Origin: Neglectibacter sp. X58 | GTDB lineage: Bacteria > Bacillota > Clostridia > Oscillospirales > Acutalibacteraceae | Length of the DNA stretch: 36,783 nt | Reading direction: 5' to 3' | Assembly: GCF_009936035.1 (NCBI RefSeq) | Contig: NZ_QWEO01000028.1 | Location: 1-36,783, forward strand | Part shown: in pieces, positions 5,432 to 29,760 of the stretch | Layout of the letters: each line of letters starts with the position of its first letter | Position numbering within the stretch: position 1 is the stretch's first letter | Translations under genes and position numbers: made by a program | Notes under the pieces: generated by a model | The model's input: only the letters and a program-made list of their open reading frames with translations | Told to the model about the DNA's origin: nothing | Database searches by the model: none

Positions 5432-7004
5432 CTTCCTTACTCCTTTCAGGGGCCTGCCCCTCTGTATCCTGCTTGTCGTTTTTATCGCGCTTGTCGTGCT
5501 TGTCAGGCCTGCGCCTGCCCTCCCGGGATTTTTGCTCCTTGCGGGGGGGAGGGTCTTTCAGCTTCGGCGGTTCTGGGGGCTTGGGGATGGTAAACTCAAA
5601 GCGGCAGTATTCCCCCTGCACAGAGCTGACGTGGATGTCCCCGCCATGAAGCTTCAAAATGGTGCGCACCAAGTACAGACCCAGGCCCATGCCGTTTTTA
5701 TCCCGGCTGCGGGATTTGTCCCCTTTGTAGAACCTGTCGAACACCATGGGCAGATCCTCCGGGGCAATGCCCGGCCCGGTGTTTTCAATGACCACTGTGG
5801 TGCGGTCAATGCCGTCTATAACGCTGGGAGTGATGGAACCCCCTGCATTGGTAAATTTTACCGCATTTTCTACCAAGTTATACACCACCTGGTGCAGTAA
5901 ATCCGGATCCCCGTATACAGTTTGGGGGGAAGCCTCCTCCAGCCCCCGGATTTCTATCTGTTTTTCGTCTATGCTCTTTTCAAAGGTGAGCAGGGTGGTG
6001 ACAATGGTTTTGGTGATGTCGAACCGGGCGGGATGGATTTCCATTTCCCCGCTGTCAATGCGGGACAAGTCCAGCATGGATTTCACCAGCCGGGAAAGAC
6101 GCTTCACCTCGTCTGAAACGATGTGCAGGTATTTGCCCTGCTCCTCCTCGGGAATAGTGCCGTCCAGGATGCCGTCGATGAACCCGGCGATGGTGGTCAT
6201 GGGGGTTTTCAGCTCGTGGGAAACGTTTGCGATAAAGCTGCGGCGCATACCCTCGGAATTTGTCAGGGAGTCTGCCATGTTGTTGAAGGAGACGGCAAGC
6301 TGGCCCAGCTCGTCGGCGCTTGTCACCGGCACCCGCATAGAAAAGTCCCCGTCCCCAAAGCTTCTTGCCGCCGCGGACATCTGCCGCAGGGGCTTTACCA
6401 GCCGGAAGGAGAAGGCCCCGGCCATGCAGAAGGTGACGCAGATGGCCGCCAGGGAGGAAATGAGGAAGATTTTAAAGGCTTCCCCCTGCACCGCGTTCAT
6501 GGAGGCGGCGCTGGTGGCGGCAAACACCGCCCCCACTGTGGGGCCGCCGTCCTGTACGGACATGGGCACGCCGATAATGTAATACCGGCTTTTATACAGG
6601 CCTCCAAAGCTGTCCCGGCCCTCATACATGCCTGTTGCCGCCTGGGACACAAACTGCCCGGGCACCGATTCCGGGGATTCCAGCTTGCTGTTGGGATAGT
6701 TTCCCAACAGAATGCGGCCCTCCAGGTCTGTGATGAAGATGTCCGCGTCAATGCTCAGGGAAAACCCGGAGATAAAAGTTTTCAGCAGCTCGGTCTGCAA
6801 TTCATACTGGCCCGGGGATTTCTCCGATAAAAACCGCCTTGCCACCCCGGCGATAGAGCCGGCGTTCTGGGTAAGCAGATCCTTTTTCTCCGCCCGCCAA
6901 TACTGCCCGAAAAACACCATCAGCACGCTGCCCGTCATCACAAAGCTTAGGAGGACGATGCTCATGGTGATGCCCAGATATCTTTTAAAAATGCTTTTTT
7001 GCAC
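5412..7004 (-). CDS. Two-component sensor histidine kinase
   Basis: With the GTG start at 7004 this is a 530-residue membrane kinase. It has a membrane segment near residues 10-32, an extracytoplasmic sensor region of about 145 residues, a second membrane segment near 178-200, a HAMP linker, a HisKA domain with phospho-acceptor H263 (NVSHELKTPM), and a HATPase_c domain with N box (LVENAVKF), F box (DRFYKG) and G box (GMGLGLYLV). The last 50 residues are an unusual Lys/Arg/Asp/Glu-rich tail. I chose GTG 7004 because GGGAGG sits 5-6 nt before it. A TTG 10 codons upstream (7034) lies inside a strong hairpin and has no ribosome site. The kinase follows its regulator and precedes htrA, which suggests envelope-stress sensing as in CssRS systems (inference). 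Confidence 0.93.
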   Translation of the reverse strand: MQKSIFKRYLGITMSIVLLSFVMTGSVLMVFFGQYWRAEKKDLLTQNAGSIAGVARRFLSEKSPGQYELQTELLKTFISGFSLSIDADIFITDLEGRILLGNYPNSKLESPESVPGQFVSQAATGMYEGRDSFGGLYKSRYYIIGVPMSVQDGGPTVGAVFAATSAASMNAVQGEAFKIFLISSLAAICVTFCMAGAFSFRLVKPLRQMSAAARSFGDGDFSMRVPVTSADELGQLAVSFNNMADSLTNSEGMRRSFIANVSHELKTPMTTIAGFIDGILDGTIPEEEQGKYLHIVSDEVKRLSRLVKSMLDLSRIDSGEMEIHPARFDITKTIVTTLLTFEKSIDEKQIEIRGLEEASPQTVYGDPDLLHQVVYNLVENAVKFTNAGGSITPSVIDGIDRTTVVIENTGPGIAPEDLPMVFDRFYKGDKSRSRDKNGMGLGLYLVRTILKLHGGDIHVSSVQGEYCRFEFTIPKPPEPPKLKDPPPRKEQKSREGRRRPDKHDKRDKNDKQDTEGQAPERSKEDDGHGK

Positions 7005-7030
7005 CTTGCCCTCCCTTTTGCCGCCGGCAG

Positions 7031-7121
7031 CCAAAGGGGCAAAGCCCCTTTGGAATCCCGCGATTCGCTTTCCGCATGCGGCAGGTTTCCTACCCGCGTC
7101 TCGGACGCGGCGTTACGTTGC
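7031..7121. repeat. Hairpin repeat between regulator and kinase genes (copy A)
   Basis: The regulator-kinase gap holds a perfect 10-bp hairpin, CCAAAGGGGC (7031-7040), AAA, GCCCCTTTGG (7044-7053), followed by GAATCCC. A second hairpin, CCGCGTC-TCG-GACGCGG, lies near 7094-7110. Two pieces recur elsewhere in the window. ACCCGCGTCTCGGA (7092-7105) and GCGTTACGTTGC (7110-7121) each match, with one mismatch, sequences in the rplW-rplB gap (10569-10582 and 10616-10627). The CCAAAGGGGC/GCCCCTTTGG arms recur after rplQ (24292-24366). The right end overlaps the regulator stop codon. Confidence 0.65.
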
Positions 7122-7814
7122 GTCTTTTACTTCAAATTTATAGCCCACGCCCCAGACGGTTTTCAAAGCCCACTTGTCAGAAACGCCTTCCAGCTTTTCC
7201 CGCAGGCGCTTCACATGCACGTCCACTGTGCGGCTGTCTCCGTAATAGTCAAAGCCCCACACCTCGTCTAAAAGCTGGTCCCGGGTGAAAACCCGGTTGG
7301 GGTTGGAGGCCAGGTGGTAAATCAGCTCCATCTCCTTGGGAGGCGTGTCCACCTGCTGGCCCTTTACCCGCAGCTCGTAATTTGTCAGGTTGATGGTAAG
7401 GTTTTCATAGGAGACTTCCTTGCTGTCATCCTGCCTGCCGCTGTTCCTGCCGCTGCGGCGCAGCACCGCGTTTATCCGGGCCACAACCTCCTTGGTTTCA
7501 AAGGGCTTCACCACATAATCGTCCGCCCCCAGTTCCAGGCCCAGCACCTTGTCAAACACCTCGCCTTTAGCTGTGAGCATGATAATGGGCACAGAGGATT
7601 TCTTCCGCAGCTCCCGGCACACCTGCCAGCCGTCCAGGCCCGGCAGCATAATGTCCAGCAGAATTAGGTCTGGGGAAACGCTGTCAAACATTTTCAGGGC
7701 CGTTTCCCCGTCGTTTGCAATGGAGGCCTCAAAGCCCTCTTTCGCGATATACAGCCGCAAAAGCTCGCAGATATTGGTATCGTCGTCCACTATCAGGATT
7801 TTTCCAGTCGCCAT
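7113..7814 (-). CDS. OmpR/PhoB-family response regulator
   Basis: This is a 233-residue regulator with an N-terminal receiver domain and a C-terminal winged-helix DNA-binding domain. Receiver residues are visible: acidic pocket D10-D12 (IVDDDTN), phosphorylation site D54 (LILLDIMLPG), a conserved Thr (MLTAKG) and the Lys of VVKPF near residue 104. The C-terminal half carries OmpR-type sequence (VFTRDQLLDEVWG, SRTVDVHVKRLREKL, WGVGYKFE). The start is ATG 7814, preceded by AGGGAG at good spacing; an open frame extends further upstream without a ribosome site. It is the first gene of the operon with the kinase and htrA. The last codons (Asp-Ala-Thr-stop) lie in the hairpin repeat, suggesting that insertion of the repeat trimmed or replaced the original tail. 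Confidence 0.95.
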   Translation of the reverse strand: MATGKILIVDDDTNICELLRLYIAKEGFEASIANDGETALKMFDSVSPDLILLDIMLPGLDGWQVCRELRKKSSVPIIMLTAKGEVFDKVLGLELGADDYVVKPFETKEVVARINAVLRRSGRNSGRQDDSKEVSYENLTINLTNYELRVKGQQVDTPPKEMELIYHLASNPNRVFTRDQLLDEVWGFDYYGDSRTVDVHVKRLREKLEGVSDKWALKTVWGVGYKFEVKDAT

Positions 7815-24471: not shown

Positions 24472-25242
24472 TTGGAGAAAAGGAAAGCCTTCCGCATAGC
24501 CCTGGTGGCGGCAATCCTGCTGTGCCTGCTGCCTGTAGGAGCCGCCGCCAACGGGGCGATGGGGCCAGAGATGACGATTATTGTAATCGGCGGGCCGGAG
24601 GATTTAACCATTGACATTGTGAAAACAGACGGCATAAACGAAGGCCGCATACACTTGGAAGGCGCGGTACAGATTGGCTTTGAAAGGCGCTATAGGGTAG
24701 ACTACCTTCAGGAGTGGACCGCACACCCAAAAGAAGAGCTTCTCTGGAATGCCACAAAGACCACCCTGGAGGTGCGGGGCACAGGGCTGAGCTGGGACAT
24801 TCCCGCAGACGGGCTCGAATATAAAGGCTACAGCCATCTGGTAACCCTGGATGTGGGCAGCAGGGAGGTAATACCCGGCCAGCCCCCCTGGCGCCAGCCG
24901 CTGCTGGTAGGCATACGGGTCGTGTTCACGCTGCTGGTGGAGGGCATAGCCTTTTACTGCTTCGGGTACCGCCGAAAAGGAAGCTGGGCTGTGTTTATCC
25001 TCATAAACATCCTCACCCAGACGGGCCTTTCATTCCTCATGGCCCAGGCTGAATTCGGGATATACCTGCTGAGCCTGCTGGTGTATTTTGTGGCAGAGCC
25101 GCTAGTCTTTATCGTGGAAGCCCTGGCTTATGTGTTCCTGCTGCGGGAAAAGAGCTGGAAGCGCGGCATGGCCTGTGCTCTTTCCGCCAATGCCGCCAGC
25201 CTGTTTTTGGGGCTGCTGCTATACGCCTTTGTCCCCATATGA
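24472..25242 (+). CDS. Unrecognised membrane protein with signal peptide and about five membrane segments
   Basis: A 256-residue protein read from TTG 24472, with AAAGGAGGG about 9 nt upstream. It has a signal peptide-like N-terminus (RIALVAAILLCLLPVGAAAN), an outside domain of about 115 residues rich in beta-type sequence (PEMTIIVIGGPEDLTIDIVK), then about five hydrophobic segments from residue 145 to the end, with basic loops (GYRRKGSW, LREKSWKRG). I recognise no family or catalytic motif. It could be a sensor or an assembly factor for surface material, but nothing in the sequence decides this. It lies alone between the rplQ repeat region and a bidirectional terminator. Confidence 0.8.
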   Translation: MEKRKAFRIALVAAILLCLLPVGAAANGAMGPEMTIIVIGGPEDLTIDIVKTDGINEGRIHLEGAVQIGFERRYRVDYLQEWTAHPKEELLWNATKTTLEVRGTGLSWDIPADGLEYKGYSHLVTLDVGSREVIPGQPPWRQPLLVGIRVVFTLLVEGIAFYCFGYRRKGSWAVFILINILTQTGLSFLMAQAEFGIYLLSLLVYFVAEPLVFIVEALAYVFLLREKSWKRGMACALSANAASLFLGLLLYAFVPI

Positions 25243-25245
25243 TGA

Positions 25246-25283
25246 AAAAACCGTACCCGGTGAAAAAGCCGGATACGGTTTTT
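25246..25283. terminator. Bidirectional intrinsic terminator
   Basis: AAAAACCGTA-C-CCGG (25246-25260) pairs with CCGG-A-TACGGTTTTT (25269-25283) around an 8-nt loop, with one mismatch. Flanking A- and T-runs on both sides make it work in either direction, ending the plus-strand membrane gene and the minus-strand 1038-residue gene, which converge here. Confidence 0.85.
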
Positions 25284-25297
25284 GAGTTACAGGGTAA

Positions 25298-28200
25298 TTA
25301 TTTTCGCAGCTTGGGCAGGGCCAGCAGGATAAGCAGGCCAATGCCCTGAAAGACAAAGAGGGTAAAGGAAGAAAGCTGGCGCATACCTCCAAAGCAGGCC
25401 ATAAAGGCCACCAGGATAAAGCCGCACACCACCACCGCGCACTGGATTGCCACCAGCAGGCCTGTCATGCGCTTTTGCTCCACACAGGCGGAAATAACGC
25501 TGAGCATAGATTCCATGCGGCCTTTTGTGGCCACCAGCGCGTCTGCCCGGGGGATTTTCTCCTCCATCAGCTTCTGGGCCTCCTGACCAAGCTGACCGTC
25601 CAGAATCCCCACAGAGGCAGTGTCAATGCCAAACAGCCGGGCCACCAGCGCCGGGGTAACATTGGGATCCGTAGTGCGCACAAGCACCGTAATGCCGCTG
25701 TCCTCCATGCGCTGCAGCTCGTTTTTCTTCCGGCGGTCTGCGCCATAGGTGAGCACCAGCATGGCGGCAACTGCCGCGTCCACCGCAATATAAATGATAG
25801 ACTTATTCCCGGAGGCATACTGCGTCTCTTCCTCCCGGGCAGGCACTTCAATGCGGTTGTTGATAAGCAGGCCGCGATTGCCAATATAGATTTTCCTGCC
25901 ATCCACCCAGCCTACAATGCCGCCTCCCGGCTCATAGTGGAACTTTTCCACCTCCGGCAAAGCGTCCTCGTTTTCGCTGATAACCTGGTCAAACACGCTG
26001 GAAAGGGGGCCGCCGATTTCCTTCATCAAAGCGGAAGCGGACATAATGGCTTCCTCAGCCCCAATGCGGTTGCCAAAGGTCTTAATGCCCCCCAGCACCA
26101 CTGTGCCAGGAGGGAACAGCTCGGAAGCGTCGCACACAACAGCGTTTACGTCCCCCAGCTTTTCAATGGCTTCATAGCTGACCACCATGGCCCCGGCCCG
26201 GCGTGCCGTCTTGCACAGGCGGCTTAAAGGCAGGTTTACTGCCAGCATGTTCCCTGCCGCCACACAGGCACAGCAGGCCGCCGCCAGGGCGCTGAGGGCA
26301 GAGGACACGCTTTTCGTCACCAGCAGGCTGCAAATGCATAGCACCAGGGAGGACAAAAGCCCAATAGGCGCAATAAGCTGGGAGGAGGATTCTGTGGGAT
26401 CCGGGCTGTAGGAAAGCTCTAAAAAGCGCTTTAAGAAGCCAGCCCTGCACTGGTAGGCTACCAATGGTTTTTCCGCCACCACATCCTTGGTCATCTTCAA
26501 AGAGGTGTTGTAGTCATCAAAGGTGCGCACAGCGTATTTCTGCTCCCGGGAGGTGACAAACCGGAAATTGCTGTGGATGCGCCGGAGCATGGTCAGCTTT
26601 CCGGCCGCGTTTAAGAACAGCAGGGCAGTAAGCACAACAGCGTACAGGTGCAGCTTGCCGTCTGCCAAATCGCTTTGGAAGAAAACTGCTCCCAGGGTCT
26701 GCACCGCCACCGCCACCGCAGCCACTGCGCAGGCGCTGTCAGAGTTGGCGCTGAGGGAGAACAGGGCCTTTAAGCCGTTGCCCACTGTGCGGTAGCAAAT
26801 ACCCATGGACACACCGGCAAGCACCACAGTCAGGATAATAAAGATAATGGGCATAGAACCCACATCCCCGCCGGCAGAGAAGCGCCCGCCGAAAATCAGG
26901 TTCACAACAGTCAGGATAAGGGTACACACCCCGGTTATCATCATGCGCATGGAAAGCTCGTGCATGTCCCCCCGCAACTCGTGGGCAATGGACTTTGCAT
27001 CCTCCGGGCCAGTATAGTCCTCAATGGATTCTCCGGTGTCCACATCCGGGGCGGGCATTTCCTCCTCAGGGAGATTTATCTCCAGCTTTTTGTTCTTCAC
27101 CCTGCGGCGGGGCGCAGCCTCCTCCATCTCTGCCTGCAAGGCTTGCTGCAGCCCTTCAGATTCAGACAGCAGGGCGCTTTGCAGCACATCCGCATGGATG
27201 ATATGGGTGGCAATGCGCCGGGAGCGGTATTCGTATATGCTCTGCACCCGGGGGATTTCCGCCATGGGCCTGGGGGGCGGCGCTTTCTGCCTTGGAGGGG
27301 CCGCGGGCATTTCGATAGTGGCCTGAGGCTCTGCTTCCGGGGCTGGCTGTGCCAAGGACTCTCCTGCTTCCGCGGCTTGTCCCTCTCCGGAAAGGGGTTC
27401 CCGCTCTGAAAGGAGGGGCGCTGGCTGTGCTTCTTCCGCGTAGGCAGGTTCCTGCCCCACAGGGGCTTCCTGTGCCAGCCCGTCCTCCATGAGGGCTTCC
27501 TCCGGCTCCAGCATCACTTCCCCAGTCATGTGCTCTTCCAAAGCAGGCTCTGGCACTTCCTCCGGGGCTGGGGCGAATTCCAATATTTTGTGGACAGTTT
27601 CCTCGCTGACTGTGGCCGCTTCCATCCCGCCGCCTTCCTGCACCTGCTGCAGTTCCACGGTGTTGTTCAGCACATTCAGCTTGATTTCCATAGTCTGGTC
27701 GGAGGAGGTTTCCAGCATGGCCCGCTGGATGTCCGGCAGTTCCTCCTGGCTTCTCTTCCCGCCCTCCACGTCGATCCCGTGCTGGCGGGCATAGGGATCC
27801 GCCGCAAAGGCCGTAACAGGCATGGGGGCCACCACGCCGAATTCATCGGCTATCTGCTCCTCGTCCACCCCGGCAGTCTGGACGGCCTCTGCCACCCGGC
27901 GGCGGCGCTCTTTCTGCAGGCGCTGGAAATTCTCCTCCACCTCCTGATCAATGGCAGTGGTGGAGTCGTCAAACAGCGCCTTAAAGCTGTCCCCTCCCGG
28001 GGCCATGTCCTCGGGCACGTCATTGTCCAGGCGGTATTCATCCAGAGGCTTTAGCTGGATGCCATAGTACATGTCCTCGCCCTCGTCAAAGTCCGGCATC
28101 TTTTTCCGCCTGCCGAAAAGCCCCCACTTTTTCTTCTTCTTTTTCGGCTTCTCCTGGGGCAGTTCTTCCTCAGGGGAAATTTCCTCCTCCTGGAAAGGCG

Positions 28201-28414
28201 GCTCCGCAGGGGGAGCGGGTTGGGGCGCTTTTACAGGGACAGGCCGGGGCTGGGCAGGGGCCTTTGCGGGGGTCTCCTGCCTTGGGGGCGCAGGTTTGTC
28301 GGGGACAGGATCTGGCGGCTGGGGGGCAGGCAGATCCATCTCCCCTGCGCCCTCCCGGCGCGCCCGTTCTTCCGCCAGAATATCTTCCAAAGTAAAATCC
28401 GGTTTCTCTGCCAT
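25298..28414 (-). CDS. Degenerate P-type ATPase-like membrane protein with long disordered N-terminus
   Basis: With ATG 28414 (AAAGGAGGG upstream) this is 1038 residues. Residues 1 to about 485 are Pro/Glu-rich and mostly disordered, with a basic patch (PKKKKKKWGLFGRRKKMPD) and some helical stretches. Membrane helices start near 490. The second half follows a P1B-type ATPase plan: helix pair, a shortened loop where the actuator domain belongs, a helix with CCAC in place of CPC (about 713), then AIEKLGDVNAVVCDASELFP, where DKTGT of the phosphorylation site has become DASEL (Asp762). An N-domain-like segment (PGGGIVGWVDGRKIYIGN), a TTD where TGD is expected, and a C-terminal helix pair (about 970-1030) follow. 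The GDGxND hinge is missing, so ion pumping is very unlikely (inference). It starts 4 nt after the rlmB stop and is probably co-transcribed with it. Confidence 0.85.
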   Translation of the reverse strand: MAEKPDFTLEDILAEERARREGAGEMDLPAPQPPDPVPDKPAPPRQETPAKAPAQPRPVPVKAPQPAPPAEPPFQEEEISPEEELPQEKPKKKKKKWGLFGRRKKMPDFDEGEDMYYGIQLKPLDEYRLDNDVPEDMAPGGDSFKALFDDSTTAIDQEVEENFQRLQKERRRRVAEAVQTAGVDEEQIADEFGVVAPMPVTAFAADPYARQHGIDVEGGKRSQEELPDIQRAMLETSSDQTMEIKLNVLNNTVELQQVQEGGGMEAATVSEETVHKILEFAPAPEEVPEPALEEHMTGEVMLEPEEALMEDGLAQEAPVGQEPAYAEEAQPAPLLSEREPLSGEGQAAEAGESLAQPAPEAEPQATIEMPAAPPRQKAPPPRPMAEIPRVQSIYEYRSRRIATHIIHADVLQSALLSESEGLQQALQAEMEEAAPRRRVKNKKLEINLPEEEMPAPDVDTGESIEDYTGPEDAKSIAHELRGDMHELSMRMMITGVCTLILTVVNLIFGGRFSAGGDVGSMPIIFIILTVVLAGVSMGICYRTVGNGLKALFSLSANSDSACAVAAVAVAVQTLGAVFFQSDLADGKLHLYAVVLTALLFLNAAGKLTMLRRIHSNFRFVTSREQKYAVRTFDDYNTSLKMTKDVVAEKPLVAYQCRAGFLKRFLELSYSPDPTESSSQLIAPIGLLSSLVLCICSLLVTKSVSSALSALAAACCACVAAGNMLAVNLPLSRLCKTARRAGAMVVSYEAIEKLGDVNAVVCDASELFPPGTVVLGGIKTFGNRIGAEEAIMSASALMKEIGGPLSSVFDQVISENEDALPEVEKFHYEPGGGIVGWVDGRKIYIGNRGLLINNRIEVPAREEETQYASGNKSIIYIAVDAAVAAMLVLTYGADRRKKNELQRMEDSGITVLVRTTDPNVTPALVARLFGIDTASVGILDGQLGQEAQKLMEEKIPRADALVATKGRMESMLSVISACVEQKRMTGLLVAIQCAVVVCGFILVAFMACFGGMRQLSSFTLFVFQGIGLLILLALPKLRK

Positions 28415-28418
28415 GGTG

Positions 28419-29276
28419 TTAGAGATCCCTCCTTTTGGGATTGAACGCCTGCAGCCCGCTTCTCTGGCGGGCCGCCTCGCAGCACAGCACACCTGCCGCA
28501 ACTGAGGCGTTCAGCGAATTGATTTTGCCCATCTGGGGCAGGGACAGCACAAAGTCGGCCTTTTCTTTCACCAAGCGGCTTACCCCCCGGCCCTCAGAGC
28601 CTATCACCAGGGCGCAAGGCCCGGTCAAATCCGCCTGCACCCAGGGCTGCCCGTCCATATCGGCAGCGTATATCCACACGCCCTGTTTCTGTAAGTCCTC
28701 CAGCAGCCGGGGCAGGTTCTGCACCCGGGCCACAGGCAGATGCTCCACAGCCCCTGCCGAGGCCCTGCCCACAGCATAAGTAAGCCCCACGCTGCGCCGC
28801 TTGGGGATAATCACCCCATGGGCGCCCGCGCATTCCGCAGAGCGTATCACAGCCCCCAGGTTGTGGGGATCCTCCAGCCCGTCGCATATCACCAGGAAAG
28901 GAGGCTCGCCCCGCTTCCGGGCCAGGGCCAGCAGATCCTCCACCCGGGCATATTCCTTCACAGCCGCCACTGCCACCACGCCCTGGTGATGCTCTCCGGG
29001 GCACAGGTGGTTCAGCTTCTGTATGTCCACTTCCTTCACAGCGGCCCCGGCCTCCTTGGCTTTTGCCACAAGGGCCAACACCGGGCCGCTTGCCTCTCCC
29101 CGGGAAATATACAGGCTGTCAATGGTGCGGCCCGCCCGCAGGGCTTCGCTTACAGCGTTGCGCCCGGCTATGATGTTTTCATCTGTCCGGCTTCCTCTTT
29201 GCTTTTCCAACTTCCGGCGCACATCCTTTACAAAAGGGGATTTCTTCATGCAATACAGTTTTTCAGGGGTTATCAT
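28419..29276 (-). CDS. rlmB: 23S rRNA 2'-O-ribose methyltransferase, RlmB/TrmH (SpoU) family
   Basis: A 285-residue SpoU-class methyltransferase with an N-terminal substrate-binding domain (AGRNAVSEALRAGRTIDSLY) and a C-terminal trefoil-knot domain with its three motifs: LEDPHNLGAVIRSAECAGA, LVIGSEGRGVSRLV and LPQMGKINSLNASVAAG. The family methylates a guanosine 2'-OH in 23S rRNA (position 2251 for RlmB). The start is ATG 29276 or ATG 29249; neither has a clear ribosome site. The promoter at 29305-29333 predicts a short leader. An in-frame TGA just upstream excludes a longer protein. Confidence 0.93.
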   Translation of the reverse strand: MITPEKLYCMKKSPFVKDVRRKLEKQRGSRTDENIIAGRNAVSEALRAGRTIDSLYISRGEASGPVLALVAKAKEAGAAVKEVDIQKLNHLCPGEHHQGVVAVAAVKEYARVEDLLALARKRGEPPFLVICDGLEDPHNLGAVIRSAECAGAHGVIIPKRRSVGLTYAVGRASAGAVEHLPVARVQNLPRLLEDLQKQGVWIYAADMDGQPWVQADLTGPCALVIGSEGRGVSRLVKEKADFVLSLPQMGKINSLNASVAAGVLCCEAARQRSGLQAFNPKRRDL

Positions 29277-29591: not shown

Positions 29592-29760
29592 CTTATGGCA
29601 GGGAATTCCCCCATTCAATATCCACCCAGGGAATATATTTTCCCACAAATTCTTGTGTCAAGCCCCCTGCCCGGCAGGAAACGCATAGAGTATACAGCCG
29701 GGAAATAGGGAAATTTTGCCTGCCTGCCCTGTTTTGGGGCTGTTCATTTCCCCTTTTTTG

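Follow-up and report, generated by a model that had tools for sequence, protein, structure and literature searches.

What becomes of a membrane pump that has lost the residues of its pumping cycle? We met this question in a 36,783-nt stretch of DNA from Neglectibacter sp. X58 (NZ_QWEO01000028.1, positions 1 to 36,783, called the window below), where an original prediction made from the letters alone had placed a pseudo-P-type ATPase 4 nt past a ribosomal RNA (rRNA) methyltransferase gene. The gene is intact and lies on the minus strand exactly as described, with its ATG at 28414, its stop at 25298 and a product of 1038 amino acids, and the methyltransferase gene that ends at 28419 is rlmB. The analysis below identifies the protein as one member of a large family of pseudo-P1B-type ATPases in one order of Clostridia, apparently repurposed and encoded almost everywhere directly after rlmB.

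We asked first of all what the membrane core is. Pfam had no match in the window protein, and on 40 family cores it returned three Hydrolase matches and one E1-E2_ATPase match, with E no better than about 0.005, besides a stray match to Radical_SAM. The NCBIfam CopA model gave 9.3e-16 for the window protein, well short of the model's own cut-off, and matched 33 of the 40 family cores, and a family profile matched the copper pump LpCopA (3rfu) at E 4.5e-39 over membrane helices M3-M4 and the phosphorylation (P) and nucleotide-binding (N) lobes. An AlphaFold2 model of residues 462-1038, built from 46 sequences, reached a mean predicted local distance difference test score (pLDDT) of 89.9 and a predicted template modelling score (pTM) of 0.83. 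When this model was searched against the PDB with Foldseek, ranks 1 to 14 were all P1B copper, zinc and cadmium pumps (4bbj at 5.8e-18), followed by Kdp and other P-type ATPases. The best template modelling score relative to the query (TMq) was 0.58, for 7r0g_B, and root mean square deviations were high (8.2-16.9 Å among the 50 best rows), likely because the lobes are placed differently in the model and in the PDB pumps. Hydropathy gave eight peaks, one of which (873-891) falls in the N lobe while a broad one (676-731) covers two helices, and the helix list of the model gives eight membrane-length helices. The P-type fold anticipated in the original prediction is thus recovered by profile, model and Foldseek, and the core, with eight helices and the P and N lobes of a P1B-type ATPase, is by sequence and model a relative of the P1B copper ATPases.

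The chemistry of the pump is another matter. We aligned 86 orthologues, one from each of 86 genomes, with five canonical P1B ATPases, having dropped repeat loci from genomes already represented and four cut or split copies (L019, L043, L053 and L068) and retained two members without most of the N-terminal arm (L022 and L024). DKTGT and GDGxND are each present in 5/5 canonical enzymes and 0/86 orthologues, and the stretch from TxD to M5 that would hold GDGxND measures 66 residues, as against 97-98 in the canonical enzymes. The position of the phosphorylated residue is Asp in 53/86 rows. The DASEL reading at Asp762, the TTD at 914-916 and the absence of GDGxND, all called from the window sequence alone, held in this alignment. 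No TGD is found at 914-916 in any of the 86 orthologues; its place is taken by a family signature, TxDxNxT, whose D916, N918 and T920 are kept in 84, 76 and 64 of the 86 rows. Neither TGE[SP] nor [SED]HP occurs in the core of any orthologue, and the loop of the actuator (A) domain is as much shortened as had been claimed, with a family median of 78 residues (65-95) where each of the five canonical enzymes has 143. A TGES string at residues 460-463 was rejected as an actuator motif since it sits ahead of the first transmembrane helix.

The N lobe and the metal site follow the same trend. In the segment singled out earlier as N-domain-like, the likeness stands insofar as G832 (the second Gly of GxG) and G845 (the Gly of GN) are each kept in 86/86 rows, but it does not extend to the ATP-binding Glu-His of SEHP, which aligns to Gly-Gly in the window protein (Gly in 54/86 and 53/86 rows). 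The first Gly of GxG is present in only 36/86, and the GxG/SEHP combination of a true N domain is not found. The canonical C-P-C aligns to V718-A719-A720, with Pro alone kept in 50/86, so the CCAC at 714-717 put forward as the CPC site was misplaced; no orthologue has CPx at the M4 site, and two chance strings occur elsewhere in the protein (L039 and L067). The family has constants of its own: Tyr at 890 in 83/86 orthologues, where the canonical residue is Asp, an aromatic residue at 767 in 83/86 and an acidic one at 765 in 78/86. Overall, none of the six P1B motifs (DKTGT, TGE, TGD, GDGxND, SEHP and CPx) is found at its site, and as judged from the alignment the residues for phosphorylation, for dephosphorylation and for binding ATP and metal are lost throughout the family.

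Selection has nevertheless kept the protein, if substitution rates are a guide. Over 11 pairs, the ratio of nonsynonymous to synonymous substitution rates (dN/dS) was 0.03-0.13 in the core and 0.11-0.25 in the arm, the ratios being rough where dS exceeded 1 (3/11 core and 7/11 arm comparisons). In a maximum-likelihood tree that took 35 of the 86 family rows, and in which branches are long, a 100/100 branch set these apart from 18 canonical rows, as one origin of the family would predict but without proving it. With low dN/dS, invariants of its own and a branch apart from the canonical pumps, we would say that the family has been repurposed rather than decayed. A homologous fold, family-wide loss of motifs and retention by selection together describe a pseudoenzyme of the P-type ATPase superfamily.

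The distribution of the family was surveyed at three levels. Within the order, a 40-row profile at E <= 1e-50 matched 275/295 genomes and 220/226 of those of high quality, and among the matches listed every genome but G717 has a single one; in its own genome the window gene has one DNA match. In a survey of 391 genomes of the class, 17 of the 18 within the order matched at E <= 3.4e-116, and the 373 outside it gave no full-length match and none better than 1.0e-42. Those outside matches that were listed span only M3-M4 and the P and N lobes, and DKTGT is intact in each of the 13 retrieved. A phylum survey of 299 genomes gave three matches at 1e-44, all three within the order, and no full-length match in the other 296 (at least seven of which are class genomes also present in the class survey). 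Nearly all members of this single order of Clostridia carry the gene. Its named relatives include Acutalibacter and Neglectibacter, and the order is, we presume, the Oscillospirales of GTDB. The family label first given, Oscillospiraceae, needs correction, as Acutalibacter sits in Acutalibacteraceae, which NCBI puts in Eubacteriales. Among genomes without the gene, we examined six of high quality together with G033. Five of these seven (G426, G502, G526, G564 and G702, all of high quality) also have no RlmB match at 1e-20, which may reflect co-loss or an assembly gap; in two of the seven the contig stops just past rlmB, and one of these contigs holds the start of the gene with FSVEDILAEF.

Linkage to rlmB proved stronger and wider than a single window could tell. 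The upstream gene in the window scores 230.9 bits against TIGR00186 (cut-off 160.15). In a first set of 70 loci rlmB is adjacent upstream in 66; two of the others are contig edges, one has rlmB at 4.2 kb and one is without it (66/68 testable). In a second set it is adjacent in 55 of 59, the other four being contig edges (55/55 testable). With ten loci common to both sets counted once, rlmB stands directly upstream on the same strand in 111/113 testable distinct loci, where directly upstream means within 1.3 kb and mostly within 100 nt; two loci of the second set, L182 and L207, are pieces of one assembly. The arrangement is conserved over the order. There is no conserved third gene, the next commonest neighbour occurring in 14/70 loci. 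RlmB itself is found across the class (75/79 genomes, 66/66 of high quality, at 1e-45), and in 15 of the 28 loci taken from outside the order (L219-L221 and L223-L247) the main frame downstream of rlmB is sigH-like. The identity of sigH was checked in two of these: L224 scores above the TIGR02859 cut-off, and L234 scores below it, yet above two other SigH-type cut-offs. Near the pseudo-ATPase gene a sigma-like frame was seen as a weak match in 1/129 loci only. No SigH above the curated cut-off was found in 60 genomes of the order, where six diverged matches at 1e-45 to 1e-53 are among those listed. The pseudo-ATPase gene thus occupies the place where many other Clostridia keep sigH, which may be a matter of rearrangement or of more than that.

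Ahead of the core lies an arm that is acidic and proline-rich (97 Asp and Glu, 49 Lys and Arg, 12.4% Pro and no Cys). It was initially given 485 residues and is better put at about 461, as conservation in the family begins at 462 and helix in the model at 470. Over 84 family rows, arm length as measured from the first ATG ranges from 0 to 1050 residues with a median of 360.5. Many arms start with a tip peptide of consensus [FY]S[LV][DE][DE]ILAE, and about six or seven conserved islands are seen within the genus (24 rows). Across genera, we compared motif counts in 53 arms with shuffles made within each arm. The tip pattern fsl..ll in a reduced alphabet ([FY][ST][LIVM]..[ILVM][ILVM]) occurs in 14/53 arms against 0.4 expected, le.ll.e in 25 against 3.7, a KK..LFG-like pattern in 8 against 0.15 and a Q[LM].L.GF-like pattern in 9 against 0.1. 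Since the highest count of any pattern over 20 shuffles was 12-19, the evidence lies in the ratio of each pattern to its own expectation and not in raw counts. Stretches resembling WS..DIDALLA and ADL.PLPTII also recur in several arms. The arms of L040, L047, L056 and L057 carry a second recurring peptide, WS..[DE]ID.LLA, which appears to resemble the N-terminal peptide of FliM. The arm of L104 contains a 42-bp tandem array at 6708-7279, with 13.6 copies of PPQQEYGEQSAYAE-like units, and this array is a fast-changing linker.

The tip appears to belong to this gene. In the fetched, overlapping loci (3,765 reading frames), a strict regular expression found the tip in 99/203 family frames and in nine more, each of them a cut or frame-broken piece of the pseudo-ATPase gene; no other gene among these frames has it. 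Degenerate DNA patterns were also searched in 10 and 15 genomes. In one of the two scans, 10/14 matches fell in the pseudo-ATPase gene; the other four were internal to a 347-residue frame, in a 21-residue frame, at residue 23 of a doubtful 97-residue frame and in L122 (not located). The idea that the tip is shared with other proteins and marks a common partner was rejected, as no second tip-bearing protein was apparent among these frames and matches. Because a conserved tip is carried on an unconserved linker of any length, we infer that the arm serves as a tether.

In light of these features, we put somewhat more trust than doubt in the reading that the protein is now a membrane-embedded docking platform whose tether arm captures a cytosolic partner. 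A relative of the P1B copper pumps would have been recast as a membrane platform, its eight-helix core and cytosolic P and N lobes would act as receptor or anchor, the long disordered arm would provide a flexible tether, and the acidic, probably amphipathic N-terminal peptide would do the capturing. The structural, sensing or scaffolding job suggested originally is in this respect a reasonable inference from the sequence. More speculatively, since the gene pairs with rlmB, the partner process would more likely be related to the ribosome or RNA than to metal. In its fullest form, the proposal would have a dead pump recruited next to rlmB, in the place that sigH takes in many other Clostridia, to give an order-defining platform linking the membrane to the maturation of ribosomes or rRNA; the N-terminal peptide, at the end of a linker that can reach ~1000 residues, would capture RlmB, a pre-50S particle or another factor. 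We hold this version to be unlikely. Several observations weigh against the platform and its proposed partner. A shared operon is no proof of a shared process, and the two genes lie on different contigs in G061 and 4.2 kb apart in L067. The disorder of the arm is a prediction from composition and charge-hydropathy. The tip is not universal (46/86 rows by a loose pattern, with at least two of the misses, L051 and L074, carrying it ahead of the first ATG), and because a few members are almost without an arm, the core must act on its own. Finally, Asp is found at 762 or 763 in 78/86 rows and an acidic residue at 765 in as many, so a metal or phosphate site may have been recast in the HAD lobe.

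That last point leads to the first of the alternatives, a recast enzyme in which the HAD lobe has acquired a new catalytic centre from the acid at 765, D916, N918 and Asp 762/763, for instance a phosphatase-like one. The conservation of these positions speaks for it, but the Asp moves by one residue between lineages and is absent from both places in 8/86 rows, neither the Lys of DKTGT nor the GDGxND loop is left, and the region where the latter would sit is ~31 residues shorter; we regard a new catalytic centre as unlikely. An equally improbable alternative is a ligand or ion sensor whose core binds metal, ion or lipid and signals to the arm. In its favour, the P1B helix plan is retained and Cys occurs just ahead of the CPC site (at 715 in 54/86 and at 717 in 35/86), yet CPx is lost from the site, the Cys are not invariant, and none of the eight commonest neighbour groups listed exceeds 14/70 loci or is metal-specific by eye. 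The protein could also be a regulatory subunit of a genuine P1B ATPase in the same cell: the same genomes hold canonical P1B-like genes, and dead paralogues regulating active partners are described for other families (PMC5201418), but the constant neighbour is rlmB and not a pump gene, and we think this very unlikely. A decaying gene or assembly artefact is scarcely credible, despite an in-frame TGA in at least two genomes (G082 and G703), a split frame in G071 (L068), arm and core in different frames in L181 and a break beside a masked stretch in L195 (the last two being frame-broken copies or assembly errors), as sequencing error and local decay are ruled out for the family by its order-wide retention, its low dN/dS, its invariant residues and the lack of any aligned orthologue with DKTGT or GDGxND.

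The docking platform that we favour would be made from a compact locus (Table 1). The rlmB and pseudo-ATPase genes look like a two-gene unit given their 4-nt spacing, a hairpin downstream, opposite-facing recognisable genes beyond rlmB and a promoter-like site ahead of it. Promoter-like sites number three in the region against 1.9 expected by chance, and an AAGGAGG resembling a Shine-Dalgarno sequence lies inside the final codons of rlmB. The hairpin, which was missing from the output of a simple terminator scan, is a possible bidirectional terminator between the pseudo-ATPase gene and its convergent neighbour. This neighbour (24472-25242, plus strand) faces the same hairpin and encodes a likely membrane protein of 256 amino acids with a signal-like start and no NCBIfam match at 0.001.

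Table 1. Positions in the window of the pseudo-P1B-ATPase gene, its parts and its flanking elements.
Feature	Position	Strand	Basis
Pseudo-P1B-ATPase gene, 1038 aa	25298..28414	-	Reading frame, NCBIfam CopA match, profile, model, Foldseek
P1B-like core, residues 462-1038, eight transmembrane helices (from model helix list)	25301..27031	-	Hydropathy, profile, model, Foldseek
Family signature TxDxNxT (TTDPNVT), residues 914-920, replacing TGD	25655..25675	-	Alignment
N-domain-like segment PGGGIVGWVDGRKIYIGN, residues 829-846, G832 and G845 invariant	25877..25930	-	Alignment
Degenerate phosphorylation site DASEL, residues 762-766	26117..26131	-	Alignment with canonical P1B ATPases
Shortened A-domain-like loop M2-M3, residues ~611-680, without TGE	26375..26584	-	Loop lengths, model
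Disordered N-terminal arm, residues 1-461	27032..28414	-	Composition, charge-hydropathy
Basic patch with LFG (KK..LFG motif), residues ~90-105	28100..28147	-	Conservation over 24 genus rows, arm motifs
Tip motif FTLEDILAE, residues 7-15	28370..28396	-	DNA patterns, genus alignment, regular expression, arm motifs
rlmB, 23S rRNA Gm2251 methyltransferase, upstream gene of the pair	28419..29276	-	TIGR00186
Promoter-like site TTGACA-18-TATATT ahead of rlmB	29632..29661	-	Consensus match only
15-bp hairpin and T-run, 3' of the pseudo-ATPase gene	25246..25283	.	-22.6 kcal/mol, z -6.71

DKTGT is taken to define the P-type ATPases, and here is a large family that shares their fold, has lost their chemistry and is barely seen by Pfam. 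It offers a natural test of what a pump fold can do without the pump cycle, a candidate marker gene for an order with many gut bacteria among its members, and, in genera such as Acutalibacter and Caproiciproducens, a function that is probably basic. No such family was described in the openly readable literature that we searched.

Its closest known counterparts are the P1B copper ATPases themselves (CopA; LpCopA, PDB 3rfu and 4bbj), with which it has in common the eight-helix plan and the P- and N-type cytosolic lobes. It differs from them in lacking all six motifs at their sites, in an A-domain loop of about half the length and in having, instead of metal-binding domains, a long disordered arm that in many members starts with a tip peptide. 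Membrane-tethered scaffolds with disordered arms and short binding peptides include the C-terminal half of RNase E, ZipA and the linker of FtsZ. Here the resemblance is one of working parts (a variable disordered linker, short peptides and a membrane anchor) and homology is not claimed; the anchor of the present family would be an eight-helix dead pump. Among identified P-type ATPases, DKTGT is kept in 99.77%, with 22 of 9,634 sequences lacking an intact motif (PMC3896382). These variants also have an altered phosphorylation motif, but they are described as single point mutations in individual sequences, whereas the family described here loses all motifs, does so order-wide and is barely recognised by Pfam. 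Finally, the P-type fold has been put to signalling use in an apicomplexan guanylyl cyclase with an appended P4-ATPase domain (PMC7858053); this domain keeps the catalytic Asp and is inferred by the authors of that paper to be active, unlike the pseudo-ATPase, in which the motif is lost.

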